From Candidatus Peribacteria bacterium (lineage in GTDB: Bacteria; Patescibacteriota; Gracilibacteria; Peribacterales; Peribacteraceae): a stretch of 35,859 nucleotides of DNA. A model generated the notes under the pieces. It searched no databases. It was given only the letters and a program-made list of their open reading frames with translations, and had not been told where the DNA came from. The stretch lies in assembly GCA_943350395.1 (NCBI GenBank), contig CALRAD010000001.1, positions 1-35,859 on the forward strand, written 5' to 3'. Made by a program: the position numbers and the translations under genes. The first letter of the stretch is position 1. Every line of letters starts with the position of its first letter. Positions 1 through 23,507 of this stretch are shown here, piece by piece.

Positions 1-153
1 CACAACTTCATCGTTTGGCAGTGGCTGAACTGGTACAACTACGTTAAAAGCCATTCTGGCATGGGAATGGACAGAAGAACCCCTGCAGCCGTAGTCTATG
101 AATGCCTCACCAAGGAAAGTGTTACCCTAATGCTGCAACCTAACAACAATTGA
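1..153 (+). mobile_element. IS481-like transposase, C-terminal fragment
   Basis: The open frame runs in from the window edge and stops at TGA 151-153. It encodes about 50 residues with the WLNWYNYVKSHSG pattern followed by MDRRTPAAVVYE, which is the usual end of the rve/DDE integrase core in IS481/IS3-type transposases (W-x-x-YN, then a TPA motif). Only the tail is present, so the catalytic DDE residues lie outside the window. Its last bases overlap the 3' end of the minus-strand gene at 140-1333, so the element boundary probably lies near 140-150. Read on the minus strand, this edge starts TGTTGTTAGG, which fits the TGT...ACA ends common in this family, but the other end is not visible. Family confidence is good; the exact boundary is inferred. 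Confidence 0.75.
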
Positions 154-1333
154 CGCTGTTGCAAAATGCTGTGAAAGTCGCGGTGACCGCTTTCATCTTG
201 GCGGGCGTTAGGCCGGTCAGTCCCCAGAGATCACTTGGTCCGCCATATTCCTTAGTTACATCGGAAGTAGACCAATCAAGCGGGGCAGCCCTATTGTCGG
301 AAATGTTTCCATCGATTGTCAAGGTCAGAGAGTTGTCCTTCACATTTTCAGGCGAAACTGCATCGGTCTTTCGCTCGACCTGCACGGTCATACCGGAAAT
401 CGTCGCATCCGGATCCGGAATGAAAAAAGCAAAGAGTGGTACCAAGCTTGCGGCCAAAAGATTGCTCGCCAATGTTCTTGTCGCATAGACATCGTCGCTT
501 CCGATTATATTGGAAGAGTTTGTCCATCCGCCGGACACGCTCCGAGGATCCTTGAACCTTGTATTCGGATCGATGACGTATGTCTCGGGCAATCCTTCAG
601 GATCGTAGAGATACTCGTACATTCCGTCCCCAAGCGGACGAAAAGAAATAAGATGATCGAGAATGCGACCCTCCGTGTCCTGCAGATTAGGAGCATCAGA
701 CCGAAAGACGTCGATACCGCTTTCGTCGCTCAAAATAATTTCGTCCTGAATCAATCGCTGGGTGAGATCCGTATCCTGCGTCACCGAAAATCGAAGATCT
801 GCGGGATCGACAGGACCCGTGACAAATATGCTTTTCGTGACGGATGAACCGTGAACGGTGAAACGAAGAACGACGTTTCGAGCCAAGCGATACGAAACCG
901 TATTCGGAGATTCCAGGGTGGCAACGGCGTCGCCTCGATACGTCAGTGTGAAAGAATGCCCGCCTTTCGAAAAAGTGTAACTCGGATGAACGCGAGAAAA
1001 TACGACCGAGGCGTCCTGTGCCAATCGATCGAAAACTATGCCGCTCTCGATGATACGTCCGGACTCGTCAATCGGAACGAGCGCACCGTTCTCATCGTGA
1101 GTGAAGACATCGGCGAGTGCGCCGACCGTGACGAATTCCCCGCTTCTCTTGACGAACGTCACGGTCTTCTCTGTACGAAGCGGAGAAAATTCCCTGTACT
1201 CCCCTCCGAGACCGTAGGTCTGCGGATCCAAAACCGAATCGACAGTCCTGAATGACTGAGCAAAAGCTGAAAACGGCATCTGCATCATCATGAAGACGAG
1301 AAGCAGAATCGATGCTGGTAGTCGCTGGTTCAT
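140..1333 (-). CDS. Secreted surface protein, paralogue of the VPEF protein, 3' end lost at the IS
   Basis: The start is set at ATG 1331-1333, giving a clean signal peptide (MNQRLPASILLLVFMMMQMP, then FSAFAQS). A longer frame to 1399 has no such start and overlaps the upstream gene. The mature part aligns over its whole length with the N-terminal two thirds of the protein at 1363-3393. Shared landmarks include FTHDENG, ESP..V.YRL, GPVD...LRF, DPEGLPETY and DLWG. The similarity ends at the stop, where the longer paralogue continues for some 250 residues including a Cys-rich part and the VPEF sorting signal. The stop at 140-142 lies within the transposase end, so the gene appears truncated by IS insertion. 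It is the third gene of the sorting operon, 29 bases after its paralogue. Function unknown; export is well supported. Confidence 0.75.
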   Translation of the reverse strand: MNQRLPASILLLVFMMMQMPFSAFAQSFRTVDSVLDPQTYGLGGEYREFSPLRTEKTVTFVKRSGEFVTVGALADVFTHDENGALVPIDESGRIIESGIVFDRLAQDASVVFSRVHPSYTFSKGGHSFTLTYRGDAVATLESPNTVSYRLARNVVLRFTVHGSSVTKSIFVTGPVDPADLRFSVTQDTDLTQRLIQDEIILSDESGIDVFRSDAPNLQDTEGRILDHLISFRPLGDGMYEYLYDPEGLPETYVIDPNTRFKDPRSVSGGWTNSSNIIGSDDVYATRTLASNLLAASLVPLFAFFIPDPDATISGMTVQVERKTDAVSPENVKDNSLTLTIDGNISDNRAAPLDWSTSDVTKEYGGPSDLWGLTGLTPAKMKAVTATFTAFCNSVNCC

Positions 1334-1362: not shown

Positions 1363-3393
1363 TCAACGCAATATCCACTTTCGCAAAACGTATGCGCAAG
1401 AAACAAGCACGGCTAAAAGACCGATAGCTGAAAATTCGGGAACGGTCGTTCCCCCTGCTCCGCTACCCTCGCCTTCTCCGCCGCTTCCCTTCACACCCAT
1501 GATCTGCCAGTACCCGTCGGCAACCGTCGAGGTGATTCCGGTCGTATTGAATGCACCATTGGGGACAATAGTTCCCTGATCGCTTGCATAGTAACTCCAA
1601 CTGTCCGCACTCGTGCAGCCGAGCGCAACTGCACCGGAACAAATGCGAACACGATCATGCGATACGCTCTTCGGAATGTAGAGTTTGTAGCCTGTACTGG
1701 CTCTCGGATCCAAAGTGGAGATATGAAAGTACGATTTCTGACCGCTGAAATTCGCTTGCACCGTCGCCGTTTCATTCCCGCACGAAAAGCTCATACGAAT
1801 ATCTGCAAGTATGGTGGATCCTTTCTTGAAGCGAACCAGTTCGTCCGACGTACCGGGACTGACAGACAAGTTGTACGATTCGTCACTCGCTCTGACTGCT
1901 GTCACGCCGTCGGGAAGCGTAGCAACACCCGCGAGACCTACACAGCCGCCACAATGCGTTCCGCAAACAAGAGTAAACGGCGGATTCGCACCACAAGGAG
2001 CATTAAAACCGGTATTCGCGCCGCAGATACCGCACGAACCTCCCGTGCAATCTGCACCAGAAGTACACACCATCCCCCATGTCAAAAGATACGTCACACT
2101 CACGCGTATATGATCGACCATGGCAGTACCAATAGGAGTCAGACAACCGGCGCAGGTAGCCACTGCTGCAATTGCAACTCCGAATTTAGTGCTCGTGACA
2201 TCGCCGGTCGGATTGTTGATATCCGATGCCTGCCAGGTTTCACCCCACAAATCTGTTCCGCTTCCGTACGTGACATAGGAGTTAGGGTCACTTGTTGCCC
2301 AATTATTCACATTACTTCTATCCGTCGATCCGATGGCGCTGGTTTTGACGATCCTGACTCTGGAATCTTTGACAGTCACTGACTCACTGAAAGTCGCTAG
2401 GCGATGGCGTTCTACCTCAACGGTGATGCCTTTGATAAACGCTCCTGTCGCAATGGAAAAAGCCATACCCGTAGCTTTGAGATAGTTTGTCGAATGCCCC
2501 GAAGATGTGATGTTCGATCCTGCATACGCGGTATCTGAACTTGCAGCATTCGTTGCGTTGGACCACGATGCAGCTCCGAATCCACCGTCATTTACAAACA
2601 ATAAACCATTGAGGGGTCCAGCCGTCGGATCGATAATATATGTTTCCGGAAGTCCCTCAGGGTCATAGCGATACTGATATGAACCTCCGCCAAGCGATAC
2701 GATCGAGATCGGATGATCAAGAGTCACACCCGATGCGTCCTGAAGTGACGGCGAAAATGTACGGAAGACAGCGCGATCTTCTGCCGTGAGAAAATCGATA
2801 CCGTCGAATGTCGCTTTCTGCACGAGCGCATGATCCTGACTGAGCGTGAAACGAAGAATGCTTCTGTCGACAGGCCCGTTGATGGTGATGGTTTTCTTGA
2901 TGCTCGCACCATCGATGGTGAAACGAAGAATCGCATGATGCGAGAGCCGGTAAGCAACGACGCTCGGTGATTCCAAGACGGGCTCCGCAATTCCCTCGAA
3001 ACTGAGTCTGAAAAAGTGATGCCCCTGGCTGTAGGTGTAACTCGGAGTGGAAGCATCGAACAGGACTTGCGCACCTCTGGGCAAGCGATCGAAGAGAATG
3101 CCGTTTGACGTCGCCTTGCCTGTCTCATCGGTCGGCACAAGAACGCCGTTTTCGTCGTGCGTGAAAATTTCTTCACCACTCGACACTGCCTGATAGGAAC
3201 CGTTTGGCAACCGAAACGTCACCGCACCGGTTGTGCGAAACGCAGGAACTTCGACGGCATTCCTGTCGACGCCAAACGTCACAGGGTCGAGCAGGACTGT
3301 CACCGGTTCGAAGGACTGAGCAAGTGCAGAAAACGGAATCTGCACGAGCGTGAACAATGCGACCAGTGCGACGGAAACCATCCGAGTGATCAT
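1363..3393 (-). CDS. Secreted protein with C-terminal VPEF (PEF-CTERM-like) sorting signal
   Basis: A 676-residue protein. An N-terminal signal peptide (MITRMVSVALVALFTLVQIP, cleaved near ALAQS) is followed by a large beta-rich extracellular part. A Cys-rich stretch lies at about 445-485 with several CxxC-like spacings. A Gly/Ser/Glu linker leads to the C-terminal tripartite signal: VPEF at 651-654, a hydrophobic helix at 655-670, and a basic end (RKWILR). This architecture is that of substrates of the exosortase/archaeosortase family, closest in form to PEF-CTERM. The start codon overlaps the stop of the exosortase gene by four bases (ATGA), indicating translational coupling. No enzymatic motif is recognised; a structural or adhesive surface role is an inference. 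Processing presumably occurs between the PEF motif and the membrane helix, as in related systems. Confidence 0.85.
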   Translation of the reverse strand: MITRMVSVALVALFTLVQIPFSALAQSFEPVTVLLDPVTFGVDRNAVEVPAFRTTGAVTFRLPNGSYQAVSSGEEIFTHDENGVLVPTDETGKATSNGILFDRLPRGAQVLFDASTPSYTYSQGHHFFRLSFEGIAEPVLESPSVVAYRLSHHAILRFTIDGASIKKTITINGPVDRSILRFTLSQDHALVQKATFDGIDFLTAEDRAVFRTFSPSLQDASGVTLDHPISIVSLGGGSYQYRYDPEGLPETYIIDPTAGPLNGLLFVNDGGFGAASWSNATNAASSDTAYAGSNITSSGHSTNYLKATGMAFSIATGAFIKGITVEVERHRLATFSESVTVKDSRVRIVKTSAIGSTDRSNVNNWATSDPNSYVTYGSGTDLWGETWQASDINNPTGDVTSTKFGVAIAAVATCAGCLTPIGTAMVDHIRVSVTYLLTWGMVCTSGADCTGGSCGICGANTGFNAPCGANPPFTLVCGTHCGGCVGLAGVATLPDGVTAVRASDESYNLSVSPGTSDELVRFKKGSTILADIRMSFSCGNETATVQANFSGQKSYFHISTLDPRASTGYKLYIPKSVSHDRVRICSGAVALGCTSADSWSYYASDQGTIVPNGAFNTTGITSTVADGYWQIMGVKGSGGEGEGSGAGGTTVPEFSAIGLLAVLVSCAYVLRKWILR

Positions 3394-4388
3394 AGCCTGC
3401 GAGTGATGAATGTTCGGATAAATGGAAACGCGAGAAGAAAGAAAAGAAAAAAATAAACGCTGCCGATGACGCTGTGAAACAGTGTCAGCGCAAATTCTGG
3501 ATACTCGGTGCCGACAAGCATCAGCGTCACAATGCGCAGAATATTCAAGAAGAAAACAGTCGTGAGACCGAGGACGAGTGCGAGAAGCGCACGAACCAAA
3601 GAAACTTTTTTAACCATGCCGAGATGGAAAACGAGATACGTGAAGAAAAGAAAGAACAGCAACAGGTATCCGAATCCCGCGCAAGCCGCCCCGATCACGA
3701 CTCTAAAACCGTCAATACTGATGAGTGTATGCTCGATATTAACGTACACGTTCCACGAAAAGAGCAGGAGAACCTTCGTAAGGAGCCGCATAATGAACGG
3801 TGCAAGCAGGGAAAAGTACACCGCTTCGATCACGCTGATGAAGAAGCAGCCGATGAGCGTGATGTAGATGACGAGCAGTTCCCATCCCTTGCTGAGTGCC
3901 GTCATCGGAGTGACGAAGGCGTAAGCGGGGAAAAACGGCGTGACGATCGCAACTGCAACGACTGCGGCGACGATGGGTCCGCCAAGGAGCTTGTTTTCTG
4001 CAATGAAATTGACGATATACTGATACACGTTGTCGCTTGGATGCGTGAGCCAGAGCGCAAACACAACCGTCGCGACGTAGAGCAGCAGAGAGCAATACTC
4101 GAACCAACGAATGCGCTCCTCGAGAATCGCAGGAGGTGTCGTACGCGGCGGCTTCAGGTAAGCGCACATGATGAGCACAAGTGCGAGCCACTCGATCGGA
4201 GATGCCGTGTAATTCACGATCTCCAGATGCGGGATGCCGATTAGGCGATCGAACCAAATACTCGACGTAAGAAACGAGCACAGAAATGCGAGCGCGAATG
4301 CAACGAAGAGATGTAGAAATTCGCTCTTGGTGATCCTGTTCCAGAATGTTTTGATTTCGCTGATCGTGCCTTGGAAAACCGCATGCAT
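3390..4388 (-). CDS. Exosortase/archaeosortase-family transpeptidase
   Basis: About 332 residues, with many hydrophobic helices across the protein. The family triad is visible: Cys236 in GAACAGFG, Arg285 in LNILRIV and His305 in LFHSVIG. The Cys-containing helix is followed by strongly hydrophobic segments, as in exosortases. Enzymes of this class cut C-terminal sorting signals at the membrane and transfer the surface protein to an envelope acceptor. The neighbouring gene encodes a VPEF-CTERM protein and overlaps this one by four bases, which suggests a dedicated enzyme-substrate pair. The start is placed at ATG 4386-4388 because a TTGGAT-17-TATAAA promoter ends ten bases upstream; an ATG at 4413-4415 would add nine residues. 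The subfamily cannot be assigned by eye. Confidence 0.88.
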   Translation of the reverse strand: MHAVFQGTISEIKTFWNRITKSEFLHLFVAFALAFLCSFLTSSIWFDRLIGIPHLEIVNYTASPIEWLALVLIMCAYLKPPRTTPPAILEERIRWFEYCSLLLYVATVVFALWLTHPSDNVYQYIVNFIAENKLLGGPIVAAVVAVAIVTPFFPAYAFVTPMTALSKGWELLVIYITLIGCFFISVIEAVYFSLLAPFIMRLLTKVLLLFSWNVYVNIEHTLISIDGFRVVIGAACAGFGYLLLFFLFFTYLVFHLGMVKKVSLVRALLALVLGLTTVFFLNILRIVTLMLVGTEYPEFALTLFHSVIGSVYFFLFFLLAFPFIRTFITRRL

Positions 4389-4398
4389 AACGTACCCT

Positions 4399-4427
4399 TT
4401 TATAGAGGAAAACATCGAAAAATCCAA
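4399..4427 (-). promoter_or_regulatory. Promoter of the exosortase operon
   Basis: On the minus strand, TTGGAT (4422-4427), 17 bases, then TATAAA (4399-4404). The -10 ends ten bases before ATG 4388, so the leader would be only about four bases. It overlaps the AT-rich palindromic repeat at 4426-4487. Confidence 0.5.
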
Positions 4428-4487
4428 ATTCCAAAAGCCAAAAAACAATACAAAAACTTGGAATTTGGTTTTTGTATTTTGGAATTT
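4426..4487. repeat. AT-rich palindromic element
   Basis: Two nested inverted repeats lie between the methyltransferase and exosortase genes. The outer arms are AAATTCCAAAA (4426-4436) and TTTTGGAATTT (4477-4487). The inner arms are ATACAAAAAC (4448-4457) and GTTTTTGTAT (4468-4477), with a ten-base loop that repeats the AATTCCAA-type motif. It could form a hairpin after the methyltransferase stop and act as a weak terminator, or be a dispersed intergenic repeat. No second copy is in this window. Confidence 0.6.
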
Positions 4488-15220: not shown

Positions 15221-15250
15221 AGTATAGCAGATTTTCGCACTACATGCCAA
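15221..15250 (-). promoter_or_regulatory. Promoter of the 180-residue secreted protein, leaderless type
   Basis: Minus strand TTGGCA (15245-15250), 18 bases, extended TGC-TATACT (15221-15229), six bases, then ATG 15214. The -35 lies in the end of the ATPase gene. Confidence 0.5.
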
Positions 15251-17726
15251 TCCTCCGCAAAATTTCACGGGACACAAATTCCTTGTCTCTGCCGTACTTG
15301 AGGCGGGAGAGCTGCTTATACGCTTCGACTGCTTTCGTGTCTTTGACGTAGGTCGTATCGAGCCAGGGACGAGGAATCTCGATCGAGAACGGGGTCGAGG
15401 GCTGGCTGTCGATCGACAGCTTCATACATGCTTTGAATGCGTCGAGGTTCACGAGATCCGACTGCGAGAAAGACGGAGCCATTTCTTTGGCGCAAAACTC
15501 GGCATCCTGCGGACCGATCTTATAGAACATCATCGTGCCGACGTTGCCGAAGACCGCACCTTTCAGCTTCACCGAGCCGGAGAGTTTGCTGTCTTTCTCA
15601 AGCTGATCCAGATACTGGTGAGCGATCACAAGACCAAGCCGGTACTTTCGAGCTTCGCTGAGGATCGACTCGATGGAGTCCGTCACGTAGTTCTGAAATT
15701 CATCGATGTAGAGGAAGAAATCTTTGCGAGCAGCGCTCTCCTCGCGCTGACGGCGCATGGCGGCAACCTGAATTTTGTTGACGATCATCATACCCAAAAG
15801 CTTGCTGTTAATATCGCCGATGAGACCCTTTGAGAGGTTCATCAGAAGAATCTTTCCGTTGTTCATGATGTCGCTGAAATCGATCGAACTCTTCACTTGA
15901 CCGACGATGTTTCGAATGAGCGTATTGGTCGTGAACTGACCGAACTTCGCAGCGAAGTACGGGATCATCTCCTGCTTCTCGCGCTGACCGGTCTGCGCCA
16001 TCTGCTTGTCCCAGAAAGAACGGACAATCGGATTCTTCAATCGTGCAACTTTGTGTTTTGCCCACTCGTCATCGGTGAAGAGACGCACGAGATCCGTGAT
16101 CGCTCCGCCCTCCTCCTCATCACCCATCAAGGTGAGACAACCGTTGCGGAAATAATCTTGAATACGCGGTCCGAAGATTTCTTCTCCAAACATTTTGACC
16201 ATCATGTTCATCGCATCGAGCGCAATCAAGTCACGCTCTTCGTCGGTTTTTGCCTCAAGCATATTCAGTCCCATCGGACGCTCTGTGTCGGCCGGGTTGA
16301 AATACACGATGTCGTCGGCACGCTCGCGGGGAATATAGGGGAAGAGATCTTCGATGAGTGATCCGTGAGGATCAACGACACAGATGCCCCGCTTATTGTG
16401 AAAATCCTGCCGAGCCATGATCTGAATGACAGAAGACTTTCCGGTACCCGTCTGACCGATGACGTAAAAGTGGCGAAAACGATCGTCGTTCTTCAGGAAT
16501 ATTTTCTGCTTCTCTCCTCGGACGGTATTGTATCCAAGAAAGAGACCGTCCTCCGGCACATTCTTCGGTGCGGGTGCAATTTTAAAATTCTGCCACTTGA
16601 TGTTTTGGACTTTGTTGTACTTGATGCTCGGAAAGTGAAAGAAACTCGAAAGCTCAGCCGTTCCGAGAAGCATCTTGTTCCAAAGAAGCGTCTGCAAGAA
16701 CGTATGTCTCGGTGTCCTCCTGATGAAGTCGTATATCATGCGGGCATTCGAATGATGTCGCGTGTGACGAAGACTGTTGCCGCGAATATCGTTGAACTGG
16801 GAGAAACTGTTTTTGATGCTTTCGAGATTGAGTTTTGCCCTCTCGTACGTCTCCGCCGAACTCACGATGCGAACCGTTGTGAGAAAGCCGGGAGAACCTG
16901 CCTTCTCATCAATGGCTTTGCTCAACTCTTCGACCTGTTGCGATACGCGCTCGGAGCCTTGTGGCGTTTCTTTCATGGGATCCTTGTCGTCGCTCGTCAG
17001 CATATTGACGAGACTGAGCAGAAGCGAGAAAGGATTCCACCACTTGAGATGATCCCCGCCTTTCTTCGGATTCAGAATCTTCTGTGCTTCCTTCTGGAGT
17101 ACTTTCTGCCAACCGGATTTCACCGGACGCAGCACGATCTGCACTGCTGCACCTTCGTCCTTCTTCAACTTGCTGAAGGCATTGGTGATCGTGTTGAACG
17201 GATCGCTCTTGAGCTGCGTATACGTCTTGAACGGATACACGAAATGCTTCGTCGGCACCAACGCGGTGGAAACGCTGACCGAATGCTTGGTGAAAATATT
17301 GTAGTCTTCCACGAGATCAATCACGGCATCAGGATAGAACGACGTAAGCTGTTTCTCGATGAGCGGAATGATGGATCTCGGCGCAACGACGAAAATAAGA
17401 ATTTCCCCTGCAAGTGCCGCGTACTCAAAAGAGAAGAAATGCGATCCCTTCCAATATCGCTTCACTGTGGAAACTTTCAAGCTGCCAAGGGTCTGACAGA
17501 GATGATCCATAATCCCAAGCACATCCTTGAAACTTTTGCCCGTCGAAAATTGTTCTGATTCCACTTCCTTGTCCTCTTTGCTTTCTTTCTTCGGCATCAG
17601 AATCTGAAGAAACACGAGTTCCCGCTCACGTCTCCTGTCTGTGATTAAACGCAACCACGCAAGAATACCCGCAACCGAAGCTGTAATGAGAACAAGTGCC
17701 AGGAGAAGAGTGAGGAGAGTCTGCAT
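15240..17726 (-). CDS. Membrane-anchored VirB4/TraG-like translocation ATPase (copy 1)
   Basis: 828 residues. One N-terminal membrane helix (about 3-26) is followed by a charged linker and a 350-residue accessory region. The P-loop ATPase core follows: Walker A GQTGTGKS at 424-431, Walker B CVVDPHG near 449-455, then NPADTERPMGLN, LLMNLSKG and YIDEFQNYVTD with the SEARKYRLGLVIAHQY sensor segment. The pattern matches type IV secretion coupling/VirB4-like ATPases with a TraG/TraM-recognition-type C-terminus, which pump DNA or protein across the membrane. It is paralogous to the protein at 20880-23507 across its whole length. No relaxase or other conjugation gene is nearby, so a chromosomal transport or DNA-uptake role is possible. 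Confidence 0.85.
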   Translation of the reverse strand: MQTLLTLLLALVLITASVAGILAWLRLITDRRRERELVFLQILMPKKESKEDKEVESEQFSTGKSFKDVLGIMDHLCQTLGSLKVSTVKRYWKGSHFFSFEYAALAGEILIFVVAPRSIIPLIEKQLTSFYPDAVIDLVEDYNIFTKHSVSVSTALVPTKHFVYPFKTYTQLKSDPFNTITNAFSKLKKDEGAAVQIVLRPVKSGWQKVLQKEAQKILNPKKGGDHLKWWNPFSLLLSLVNMLTSDDKDPMKETPQGSERVSQQVEELSKAIDEKAGSPGFLTTVRIVSSAETYERAKLNLESIKNSFSQFNDIRGNSLRHTRHHSNARMIYDFIRRTPRHTFLQTLLWNKMLLGTAELSSFFHFPSIKYNKVQNIKWQNFKIAPAPKNVPEDGLFLGYNTVRGEKQKIFLKNDDRFRHFYVIGQTGTGKSSVIQIMARQDFHNKRGICVVDPHGSLIEDLFPYIPRERADDIVYFNPADTERPMGLNMLEAKTDEERDLIALDAMNMMVKMFGEEIFGPRIQDYFRNGCLTLMGDEEEGGAITDLVRLFTDDEWAKHKVARLKNPIVRSFWDKQMAQTGQREKQEMIPYFAAKFGQFTTNTLIRNIVGQVKSSIDFSDIMNNGKILLMNLSKGLIGDINSKLLGMMIVNKIQVAAMRRQREESAARKDFFLYIDEFQNYVTDSIESILSEARKYRLGLVIAHQYLDQLEKDSKLSGSVKLKGAVFGNVGTMMFYKIGPQDAEFCAKEMAPSFSQSDLVNLDAFKACMKLSIDSQPSTPFSIEIPRPWLDTTYVKDTKAVEAYKQLSRLKYGRDKEFVSREILRRIGM

Positions 17727-20632: not shown

Positions 20633-20883
20633 CGTATACCATTGAATATGCAAAGGCTTTTTCGTGGAAAAATCTTGAAAAGATTCCCAAGAACGACCTT
20701 CGAATGATACGAAATTCCATTGAACAAAAACTGACTACGGAACCGATCGCATTTGGAAAACCCCTAAGACATACACTCAAAGGAAGCCGAAGGTTGCGTG
20801 TCGGTGATTATCGAATTATTTACAATGTCAAAAAAAAAACGGTCACGATTTCACTCATCGCAAATCGATCGAAGGTCTACTAA
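20629..20883 (+). CDS. RelE/ParE-superfamily toxin
   Basis: 84 residues. The end has the RelE-fold signature: PLRHTLKGSRRLRVGDYRII, then a strand pair finishing ISLIANRSKVY. RelE-type toxins cleave mRNA in the ribosome; ParE-type ones poison gyrase. Length and the KGSRRLRVGDYRIIY stretch favour the RelE side. It starts inside the antitoxin stop and ends overlapping the stop of the convergent ATPase gene by four bases. Confidence 0.85.
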   Translation: MTYTIEYAKAFSWKNLEKIPKNDLRMIRNSIEQKLTTEPIAFGKPLRHTLKGSRRLRVGDYRIIYNVKKKTVTISLIANRSKVY

Positions 20884-23507
20884 CCTTTGGTTATGCCTAT
20901 GCGATCTTCGATTTCTTGATCGACGAACGCTTTCTTCCGTCCGTACTTCATGCGGCTGAACTCTTTGATGAGCGCACCGAGTTTGTTGTTCCTATCCGAC
21001 TCGTCGTAGATCGTCGCCATGCTGAAGGGACGTGAGGTCGTATTGTTGATGTTGAGCTTTACGTAACACTGGAAGTTTGGAATGCCAATGACATCCTGTT
21101 CGCTGAGCACGGGAGCAAATTCTTTTGCCATGTACTCCGCATCTTCAGCACCGATCTTGAAGCTCATGATCGTCCCGACGTTACCGAAGACAGCGTCGCG
21201 CATCTTCGTACTGGACTGGCCGTACGCTTCGGTTTTCCCGACAAGTTGCCCGATATACTGGTGCGCCATGACAAGTCCAAGTTCGTACTTTCTGGCCTCG
21301 CTCAGGATCGTCGCGAATGCATCTGTGATGAAGTTCTGGAATTCATCGACGTAGAGGTAGAACCTCTTGCGCTGATCTTGTGGAACATCGGCTCTCGAGA
21401 GAGCTGCCATGTTCACTTTGTTCACGAAGATGAGTCCAAGGAGCTGAGCATTCACGTCGCCGATTTTTCCTTTGCTCAGGTTCACCAGAAGTACTTTTCC
21501 TGTGTCCATGATTTCTCGGATGTTGAATGCAGATTTCGGCTGACCGATGATGTTTCGCATCGTCGAGTTCGTGATGAACGGGCCGAATTTCGCGGAGAAG
21601 TACGGAATCATTTCTTCTTTCTCTCTGGCGCCGGTCTTAGCGATTTCATTCTCCCAGAAGCTCCTGACCACGGCATTCTTGCACTTGCCGACTTTGTAGT
21701 GCTGGAACTCGTCATCGACGAACAAGCGTGGCACATCGATGAGCGTGGCACCCTCCTCTTCGTCATCCATAAGAGTCAAACAACCGTTTCGGAAGTAGTG
21801 CTGGATTCTGGGACCGAAGATTTCGTTGCCGAAAAGTTTGATAAAAATTTCCATGGCATCGAGAGAGGCGCGGTCTTTCTCTTCGGGGGTACTCGCCTCC
21901 AGAAGATTGAGTCCCATCGGACGCTCGCTGTCGGCAGGATCGAACACGATGACGTCTTTTGCACGTTCCTTCACCGTGTGAGCGAGCGCATCCTCGATCA
22001 GGTCTCCATGCGGATCGACAACGCAGAGACCTTCGTTATTGGCGATATCTTGTCTGGCCATCCAGTTTAAGAGCGCAGATTTACCTGAACCCGATTTACC
22101 AATGATGTACTGGTGACGGGTGCGATCTTTATCGAGGAAGCGAATTTTCGTTTCGACGGCTCGGTGACGATTGATGCCGAGGACGATTCCTTCGGCCGGT
22201 GCATTCGGAGGCGGAGGGAGAACTTTACACTGGATCCAATCGATGTTCGTTATCGTGTTGTAGCGGCTGTCGGGAAAGTGAAAAATCGACGCGAGTTCCT
22301 TCTCGACGAGAAGATTCCTTCGATGGGCAAAGCCATTCAAGCGCCACTGCCAAAGGGGGTAGATGAAATACTGATTGATCCAGAGCGGCAGGAAGTCCAC
22401 AAAGACTCTGCGGTTCTTGAAAAAGTTGCCGTACATATCTTTGAACACGTTGAAAGAAACCTGGAGATTATTGGCGATATCGTTGGCGCGCTCCCATGTT
22501 TTCGATGCCGCAAGAATACGCACGCTGCAATGAAATCCGCTCATACCGGCTTTCTCGCCCATACGCTTGTAGAGCTCCTCCTCCGGCTGAATCATACGAA
22601 TGAACGAATCTCCTTTCGAAGCTCCCGGTGCGAAGTTCTGGGCCGCATCTCCCGAGCTCAGCATATTGATGACAGTGCCGACGAATTTGAGTCCGGGAAT
22701 GTGATCGAACACCGACTGCTTCTTGCCCTTGAAACTTGCACTCGCTCTCGCCTTCACTTTTTTGGACCAACTCTCAGAAAAAGTCGGCGTGAGCACCACT
22801 TGCACGGTTGCCCTCTCATCGGGATGCAATTTACTGAGCGAGTTTGCGACGTCGTTAAAAGGATCATCCTGCATGTGATCGAAGAAGCGGAGCGGATACT
22901 CGTACTTCTTCTTGAGGATCATATTGTATCCGACGAGCTTGTACCCTTTCGGCCAAATTTCCGGCGTTGGCTTGAGCGTGACTTCTGCGTTCGGATAATA
23001 CGACGTGATCTGCTTCTCGATGATGGAGACCAGATGCTTTGGTACAAGCACATAGAACGTGATCAGTCCGTTCTCGACGAAAAGCTCGAAACTGATCGTG
23101 ATGAAACGGAAAATCCAGAAATGAATCACCTGCCAAAATGACAGTTCTTTCACTTCATTGAGTGCGCGAAACAGCTGCTCCATGATGGCGATCTTCTCCT
23201 TGAAATCTTTCTCGGTACGCTTCTCCTGATCGAGCTTGCTGTCGCTTCTAGGAAGAATGATCTTCATGGACACGAGCTTCTTCGCCGAGAGGATCGCATA
23301 CAGACAACGCATGTAGTAAATCGTGTAGTAGATGATGAAATACCACGTGATCAACCACAGACTGTTTGGAAGCGGATCGCTCACCCACCACGTAAAAAGA
23401 TCCGACCAAATATTCAGCTGGAAGATGAACGAGACCCCCTCGAGGAGGAGAATGAGGACGGGCCAGAAGATGAAGCGAAGAAGGGTGACCAACGTGATTG
23501 GAGACAC
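20880..23507 (-). CDS. Membrane-anchored VirB4/TraG-like translocation ATPase (copy 2)
   Basis: 875 residues, paralogue of the 15240-17726 product. The N-terminus carries two hydrophobic segments (about 8-30 and 50-70) instead of one. Then come the shared accessory region (PLRFFDHMQDDPFNDVANSL, matching PFKTYTQLKSDPFNTITNAF in copy 1) and the ATPase core: Walker A GKSGSGKS at 470-477, CVVDPHG, DPADSERPMGLN, LLVNLSKG and YVDEFQNFITD. The start is GTG 23505-23507; an extended TGC-TATAAT box lies 20 bases upstream. Having two such ATPases suggests a two-motor or heteromeric transport machine, but no pilus or relaxase genes are present here. Confidence 0.85.
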   Translation of the reverse strand: MSPITLVTLLRFIFWPVLILLLEGVSFIFQLNIWSDLFTWWVSDPLPNSLWLITWYFIIYYTIYYMRCLYAILSAKKLVSMKIILPRSDSKLDQEKRTEKDFKEKIAIMEQLFRALNEVKELSFWQVIHFWIFRFITISFELFVENGLITFYVLVPKHLVSIIEKQITSYYPNAEVTLKPTPEIWPKGYKLVGYNMILKKKYEYPLRFFDHMQDDPFNDVANSLSKLHPDERATVQVVLTPTFSESWSKKVKARASASFKGKKQSVFDHIPGLKFVGTVINMLSSGDAAQNFAPGASKGDSFIRMIQPEEELYKRMGEKAGMSGFHCSVRILAASKTWERANDIANNLQVSFNVFKDMYGNFFKNRRVFVDFLPLWINQYFIYPLWQWRLNGFAHRRNLLVEKELASIFHFPDSRYNTITNIDWIQCKVLPPPPNAPAEGIVLGINRHRAVETKIRFLDKDRTRHQYIIGKSGSGKSALLNWMARQDIANNEGLCVVDPHGDLIEDALAHTVKERAKDVIVFDPADSERPMGLNLLEASTPEEKDRASLDAMEIFIKLFGNEIFGPRIQHYFRNGCLTLMDDEEEGATLIDVPRLFVDDEFQHYKVGKCKNAVVRSFWENEIAKTGAREKEEMIPYFSAKFGPFITNSTMRNIIGQPKSAFNIREIMDTGKVLLVNLSKGKIGDVNAQLLGLIFVNKVNMAALSRADVPQDQRKRFYLYVDEFQNFITDAFATILSEARKYELGLVMAHQYIGQLVGKTEAYGQSSTKMRDAVFGNVGTIMSFKIGAEDAEYMAKEFAPVLSEQDVIGIPNFQCYVKLNINNTTSRPFSMATIYDESDRNNKLGALIKEFSRMKYGRKKAFVDQEIEDRIGITKG

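Follow-up and report, generated by a model that had tools for sequence, protein, structure and literature searches.

Does a tiny, uncultured bacterium fix large proteins to its surface by means of a sorting enzyme encoded beside them? This question is raised by a locus in a genome of Candidatus Peribacteria (Patescibacteria/CPR), in which a membrane protein with the hallmarks of an exosortase is encoded together with secreted proteins carrying a distinctive C-terminal tail. CPR bacteria presumably live in attachment to other cells, and the surface fixing of their large proteins is mostly unexplained.

The locus and its host

The analysed window, i.e., the whole stretch of DNA considered here, covers the opening 35,859 bases of a contig 202,518 bases long, which belongs to a genome of 1.25 Mb that is 97.7% complete. 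The closest named genome is Candidatus Peribacteria Baikal-deep-G206, whose exosortase is 93% identical to that of the window (a search of genome contigs with the enzyme sequence matched a single locus). A profile search of the source genome detected one exosortase copy. The features on which the analysis rests are as follows, with the evidence for each in brackets:

1..153, plus strand: end of an insertion element, with an imperfect terminal inverted repeat and the C-terminal end of a frame resembling a transposase (transposase read by eye)
143..1333, minus strand: N-terminal part of substrate 2, a paralogue of substrate 1, interrupted near 145-160 (sequence; gene order to either side of the break as in a sister genome)
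1363..3393, minus strand: substrate 1, a secreted 676-aa protein with a VPEF-CTERM tail (open reading frame, signal peptide, family relatives, dN/dS 0.14)
1366..1443, minus strand: sorting tail of substrate 1, with VPEF, membrane helix and basic end; residues 651-676 (tail model A1)
1444..1488, minus strand: Gly/Ser-rich linker ahead of VPEF (read from sequence; present in all VPEF substrates)
3316..3393, minus strand: signal peptide of substrate 1, residues 1-26, ending in FSALAQ (read from sequence; paralogues show a like pattern)
3390..3393, minus strand: ATGA overlap of the enzyme stop and the substrate 1 start (sequence)
3390..4388, minus strand: exosortase-superfamily membrane protein of 332 aa (TIGR04178, PF09721, 12-member alignment, dN/dS)
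3474..3476, minus strand: codon of the predicted catalytic His305, FH motif (invariant in 12/12)
3534..3536, minus strand: codon of the predicted catalytic Arg285, NxxR motif (invariant in 12/12)
3681..3683, minus strand: codon of the predicted nucleophile Cys236 (invariant in 12/12 family exosortases)

The numbering of the enzyme residues and its length of 332 aa are counted from the ATG at 4388; other possible in-frame starts lie upstream (ATG at 4415, TTG at 4448). A scan of the window for promoters and terminators returned signals no more frequent than expected by chance. Elsewhere in the window there are two large ATPases with domains of type IV secretion coupling proteins (TrwB/TraG-like), encoded at 15240-17726 and 20880-23507 on the minus strand.

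An exosortase outside the named subfamilies

The enzyme matches the exosortase/archaeosortase signature TIGR04178 with 38.7 bits against a cut-off of 23, rather than scoring to an unrelated family of membrane proteins. With PF09721 (cut-off 25.7) it obtains 27.2 bits in the genome search and 24.9 bits, just under the cut-off, for the protein started at the TTG. We aligned twelve enzymes from 11 Peribacteraceae genomes, all of which match TIGR04178, and found C236, N282, R285 and H305 to be invariant in 12/12 at identities as low as 20%. A prior reading of this DNA from its sequence alone (below, the sequence-only reading) had picked out Cys236, Arg285 and His305 as an exosortase triad, and these positions are exact when counted from the ATG at 4388.

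Among the named Xrt/Art subfamily models, the enzyme reaches the cut-off of none: the top bacterial one, exosortase K (XrtK, TIGR04287), gives 27.6 bits against a cut-off of 55, and archaeosortase C (TIGR03762) 25.5-26.1 bits against 100. As the superfamily signature is passed and all subfamily cut-offs are missed, profile comparison places the enzyme within the exosortase/archaeosortase superfamily and outside every named subfamily. The suggestion of a new subfamily for the candidate phyla is supported in so far as no named subfamily fits, whereas its phylum-wide scope is too broad, as we detected the VPEF type in just two genera, both from a single family. Structure prediction from two input sequences yielded an all-helical model with a mean pLDDT of 41, too low to judge the geometry of the active site or the superfamily layout of about eight membrane helices with the triad on the outer face, and comparison of the enzyme sequence with solved structures returned no match.

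Substrate 1 and its VPEF tail

Substrate 1 begins with MITRMVSVALVALFTLVQIPFSALAQ, a typical signal peptide, and its C-terminus reads ...GSGGEGEGSGAGGTT-VPEF-SAIGLLAVLVSCAYVL-RKWILR, so that the secreted protein with Gly-rich linker, VPEF, membrane helix and basic tail that had been described earlier is borne out, at a length of 676 aa. The four-base overlap proposed between the two genes is likewise present, as ATGA at 3390..3393 within ...GGCTATGATC..., where the enzyme stop TGA and the substrate 1 start ATG share these bases; such an arrangement suggests that translation of the two genes may be coupled.

The tetrapeptide VPEF is letter-for-letter identical in six proteins whose remaining sequence is about 40-83% alike, which argues against a chance origin of the tail, and it is invariant across the six tails while much of the membrane helix varies. 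The profile models of known C-terminal sorting signals do not capture this tail: it reaches the cut-off of none of the CTERM models. The window tail scores 14.4 bits with PEF-CTERM (TIGR03024; cut-off 23), which weakly matches 4/12 tails (best E 0.02). With PEP-CTERM (TIGR02595), whose motif is Pro-Glu-Pro and not VPEF, the window tail has no match and 2/12 tails match weakly (best E 0.034). The label "PEF-type", which the sequence-only reading had given to both signal and enzyme, therefore describes a resemblance only, the tail standing at 14.4 bits against 23 and the enzyme at 25.5-26.1 against 100 for archaeosortase C.

Searches of the substrates against Pfam and NCBIfam detected no domain. 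The predicted structure of substrate 1 has a mean pLDDT of 43, with moderate order confined to a beta-rich stretch at residues about 35-256, and a fold search of the PDB with this model returned nothing at E <= 0.001. Many Peribacteraceae proteins share the middle domain of substrate 1, at residues about 260-448; one of these, of 1359 aa and lacking a sorting tail, forms a convergent pair with a sortase-family gene in G000 (contig C1:62604-67896; locus L149, 605-5897). All six VPEF tails (alignment A1) have a cysteine in the middle of the helix; we know of no role for such a helix cysteine in exosortase signals.

Two tandem substrates, one split by an insertion element

Directly downstream of substrate 1 lies substrate 2, which is 40-43% identical to it. 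At the contig start this gene is cut by the insertion element, whose putative transposase frame contains ...WLNWYNYVKSHSGMGMDRRTPAAVVYECL..., and the C-terminal part of substrate 2 with its VPEF tail, corresponding to residues 408-676 of substrate 1, is found on contig C22 at about 132-950. At the starts of the two contigs stand the two ends of the element, recognisable as inverted repeats with imperfect matching, and a short stretch of the interrupted gene is present on both contigs. In the sister genome G056, an RsmF-like gene, the enzyme, substrate 1, substrate 2 and the next gene stand in one row, and the genes past the break on C22 match this order; the synteny on both sides confirms the joining of the two halves. 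The source genome thus encodes two VPEF proteins, one of which is now split by an insertion element. They carry the only two strong VPEF tails of the genome, and targets that are few and adjacent to the enzyme are what a dedicated system would present. Accordingly, of the proposal that the bacterium anchors one large surface protein through its own sorting enzyme, the dedication of the enzyme to adjacent VPEF proteins stands, whereas the single substrate has to be replaced by two in tandem.

The broken gene could be taken as a sign that the whole cassette is a decaying remnant. We hold this to be most improbable: in G056 all three cassette genes are whole, and comparison with that genome gives dN/dS values of 0.06 for the enzyme, 0.14 for substrate 1, and 0.14 and 0.09 for the two halves of substrate 2. 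The enzyme and its substrates are therefore under purifying selection. The synonymous divergence of the cassette from G056 (dS about 0.65-0.89) lies mostly below that of neighbouring genes (0.5-2.6, the RsmF-like gene being at 2.6). A recent exchange of the cassette between lineages is hinted at by these lower values, but we do not adopt it as the ranges overlap.

Enzyme and tail across the Peribacteraceae

The sequence-only reading had called for a survey of related genomes, and we examined 74 genomes of the family. Twelve of them encode an exosortase, and a tail of either the VPEF or the VPFF/APFF-[SP]xW type occurs in 11/12 genomes with the enzyme and in 0/62 without it (Fisher p 3e-12, with shared ancestry left uncorrected). 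Because genes next to the enzymes supplied most of the sequences for the tail models and the four VPEF genomes represent only two genera, this test is partly circular and not fully independent. Two cases from outside the model-building set nevertheless agree with it: in G044 the tail is on an unlinked contig, and G040 has tails of which one lies beside the enzyme, at the edge of a contig. In the twelfth genome, G024, the exosortase is a different one and its neighbour resembles TIGR02921 (108 of 200 bits), a family named for PEP-CTERM and linked to exosortases.

The tail-bearing gene adjoins the enzyme in G000, G056, G035, G017, G018, G060 and G069, and is one gene apart from it in G057. The enzyme comes first in G000, G056 and G057, and the substrate in G035, G017, G018, G060 and G069; that the pairing survives such reordering argues for a functional link. 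In G040 the substrate tail stands just upstream of the exosortase (locus L049, contig C134) at the contig edge, and the exosortase is followed by genes that by eye resemble glycosyltransferases, as in classical exopolysaccharide-linked exosortase loci.

The two tail types are distributed differently. VPEF tail model A1 has six strong copies in the 74 genomes, all in G000, G056, G057 and G035, which are the genomes with the closest enzymes (46-100% identity); all four genomes with such close enzymes thus keep VPEF. Its next-best matches are the related tails of G016 and G017. The VPFF/APFF/APVF-[SP]xW model has strong copies only in G016, G017, G018, G040, G044, G060 and G069. The midpoint-rooted tree of the enzymes unites the four VPEF members in a clade (100/99) separate from that with VPFF/APFF tails (85/82, moderate support); on this tree, tail type follows enzyme clade.

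These distributions bear on two other explanations of the tail. The first is that the VPEF helix is a permanent membrane anchor and nothing else, the exosortase-like protein acting elsewhere or not being a peptidase, and their adjacency being incidental. A Gly-rich linker and a C-terminal helix would also suit a plain anchor, and the cleavage is putative; such an anchor would, however, have no need of an invariant VPEF ahead of a largely variable helix, nor would it vanish with the enzyme, as the tails do in the 62 genomes without one. Together with the invariant catalytic residues and the pairing in both gene orders, this makes the plain anchor unlikely.

The second is that another sorter, such as a cell-wall sortase, a rhomboid or a CPBP-type protease, processes the VPEF tail in the manner of LPXTG, GlyGly-CTERM or MYXO-CTERM signals. 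In its favour are two sortase-family proteins in the genome, the Gly-rich linker as in GlyGly-CTERM, the invariant Cys within the VPEF helix, and weak matches of the LPXTG_anchor model to 4/12 tails (best E 0.0075). Yet sortases (PF04203) occur in 73/74 genomes, whether tails are present or not, and so cannot explain them; a rhomboid scores above its family cut-off in 0/11 tail-bearing genomes; and CPBP proteases are absent from 8/11 of these. As none of the three distributions tracks the tails, we rejected these enzymes as VPEF sorters and consider this explanation very improbable.

The enzyme and the tail are present together, absent together and change together in the relatives, which points very probably to a dedicated system for fixing proteins to the surface.

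Proposed mechanism and comparison with known systems

We therefore favour, with high though not complete confidence, the reading of the operon as a dedicated exosortase-substrate system with cleavage at VPEF and retention at the surface through an envelope acceptor. The cut and its position, the acceptor and the part that the VPEF proteins play in the cell are inferred, and the mechanism is proposed by analogy with archaeosortase A of Haloferax volcanii, which cleaves the tail of proteins with a C-terminal signal and attaches them to lipid (PMC7157517). By this analogy, the signal peptides would export both substrates, which the C-terminal helix would keep at the membrane; the enzyme would recognise VPEF at the outer end of the helix, and Cys236, assisted by Arg285 and His305, would attack the peptide chain there. 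The helix and basic tail would then be removed and the new C-terminus transferred to a membrane or envelope acceptor (lipid or sugar), so that the proteins would stay on the cell surface. To our knowledge, no exosortase acceptor has been described for the envelope of Patescibacteria. Peribacteria are reported to make peptidoglycan as well as large extracellular proteins and many sugars at the surface (PMC4736985), which makes several acceptors conceivable.

The likely mechanism, a cut at the tail motif with transfer of the new C-terminus to lipid, is the point of likeness to archaeosortase A/PGF-CTERM; the motif differs, and no lipid-synthesis (PssA) or exopolysaccharide gene was seen among the window genes examined. 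The exosortase/PEP-CTERM system (EpsH, TIGR04178/PF09721), reportedly described by Haft et al. in 2006 and 2011, shares with the present one a membrane enzyme with Cys, Arg and His, substrates with signal peptides, a tripartite tail of motif, helix and basic end, and paired occurrence. It differs in having PEP instead of VPEF and often twenty or more substrates instead of one or two. It has also been described as confined to Gram-negative bacteria (PMC3237569), whereas the host here is a CPR bacterium.

Archaeosortase C/PEF-CTERM of methanogens and ANME archaea has PEF in the motif and a weak similarity to both partners, which are, however, far under its cut-offs; moreover, the host here is bacterial and a dedicated pair takes the place of several targets. 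Exosortase K is likewise the closest named bacterial subfamily by score without the enzyme being a member. GlyGly-CTERM/rhombosortase, where enzyme and single target stand side by side in single-target genomes (PMC3237569), offers a parallel in the adjacency of the genes, but its enzyme is of unrelated ancestry by family, and the distribution of rhomboids does not follow that of the VPEF tail. Thus, dedicated sorting pairs, and PEF-CTERM with archaeosortase C in archaea, were already known (PMC3237569, PMC5244752), whereas the VPEF pair in a CPR bacterium, the failure of every named subfamily to fit, and the joint change of tail and enzyme clade are new. In the open-access papers to which our search was confined, we found no paper joining exosortases with Patescibacteria or Peregrinibacteria, the candidate phyla radiation appearing in one incidental co-mention.

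Exosortases in the wider Patescibacteria

As a compact enzyme-substrate pair with one recognisable motif, the operon lends itself to testing which acceptors exosortases join their substrates to, and the related enzyme clades with different tails form a natural series for mapping specificity. Across 380 sampled genomes of the phylum, TIGR04178 has matches in 18 (17 over the cut-off), making the exosortase a rare and scattered trait. It could go either way whether Patescibacteria have their own set of dedicated exosortases, each matched to a private tail (VPEF and VPFF/APFF-[SP]xW in Peribacteraceae, [VIL]PE[KRA] elsewhere) that anchor large surface proteins.

A second, shorter group of exosortases is found in other Patescibacteria. 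Its members are about 180-240 aa long, carry the motifs WNC[IL]GWQ and FHDY/FHDW, and in those tested reach no named subfamily. They adjoin, or lie close to, secreted proteins 270-1640 aa in length whose C-terminus consists of [VIL]PE[KRA], a helix and a basic tail, the loci being L154, L155, L153 and L158 (genomes G217, G168, G087 and G152); further enzymes of this group are at L093, L099, L100, L103, L104 and L105.
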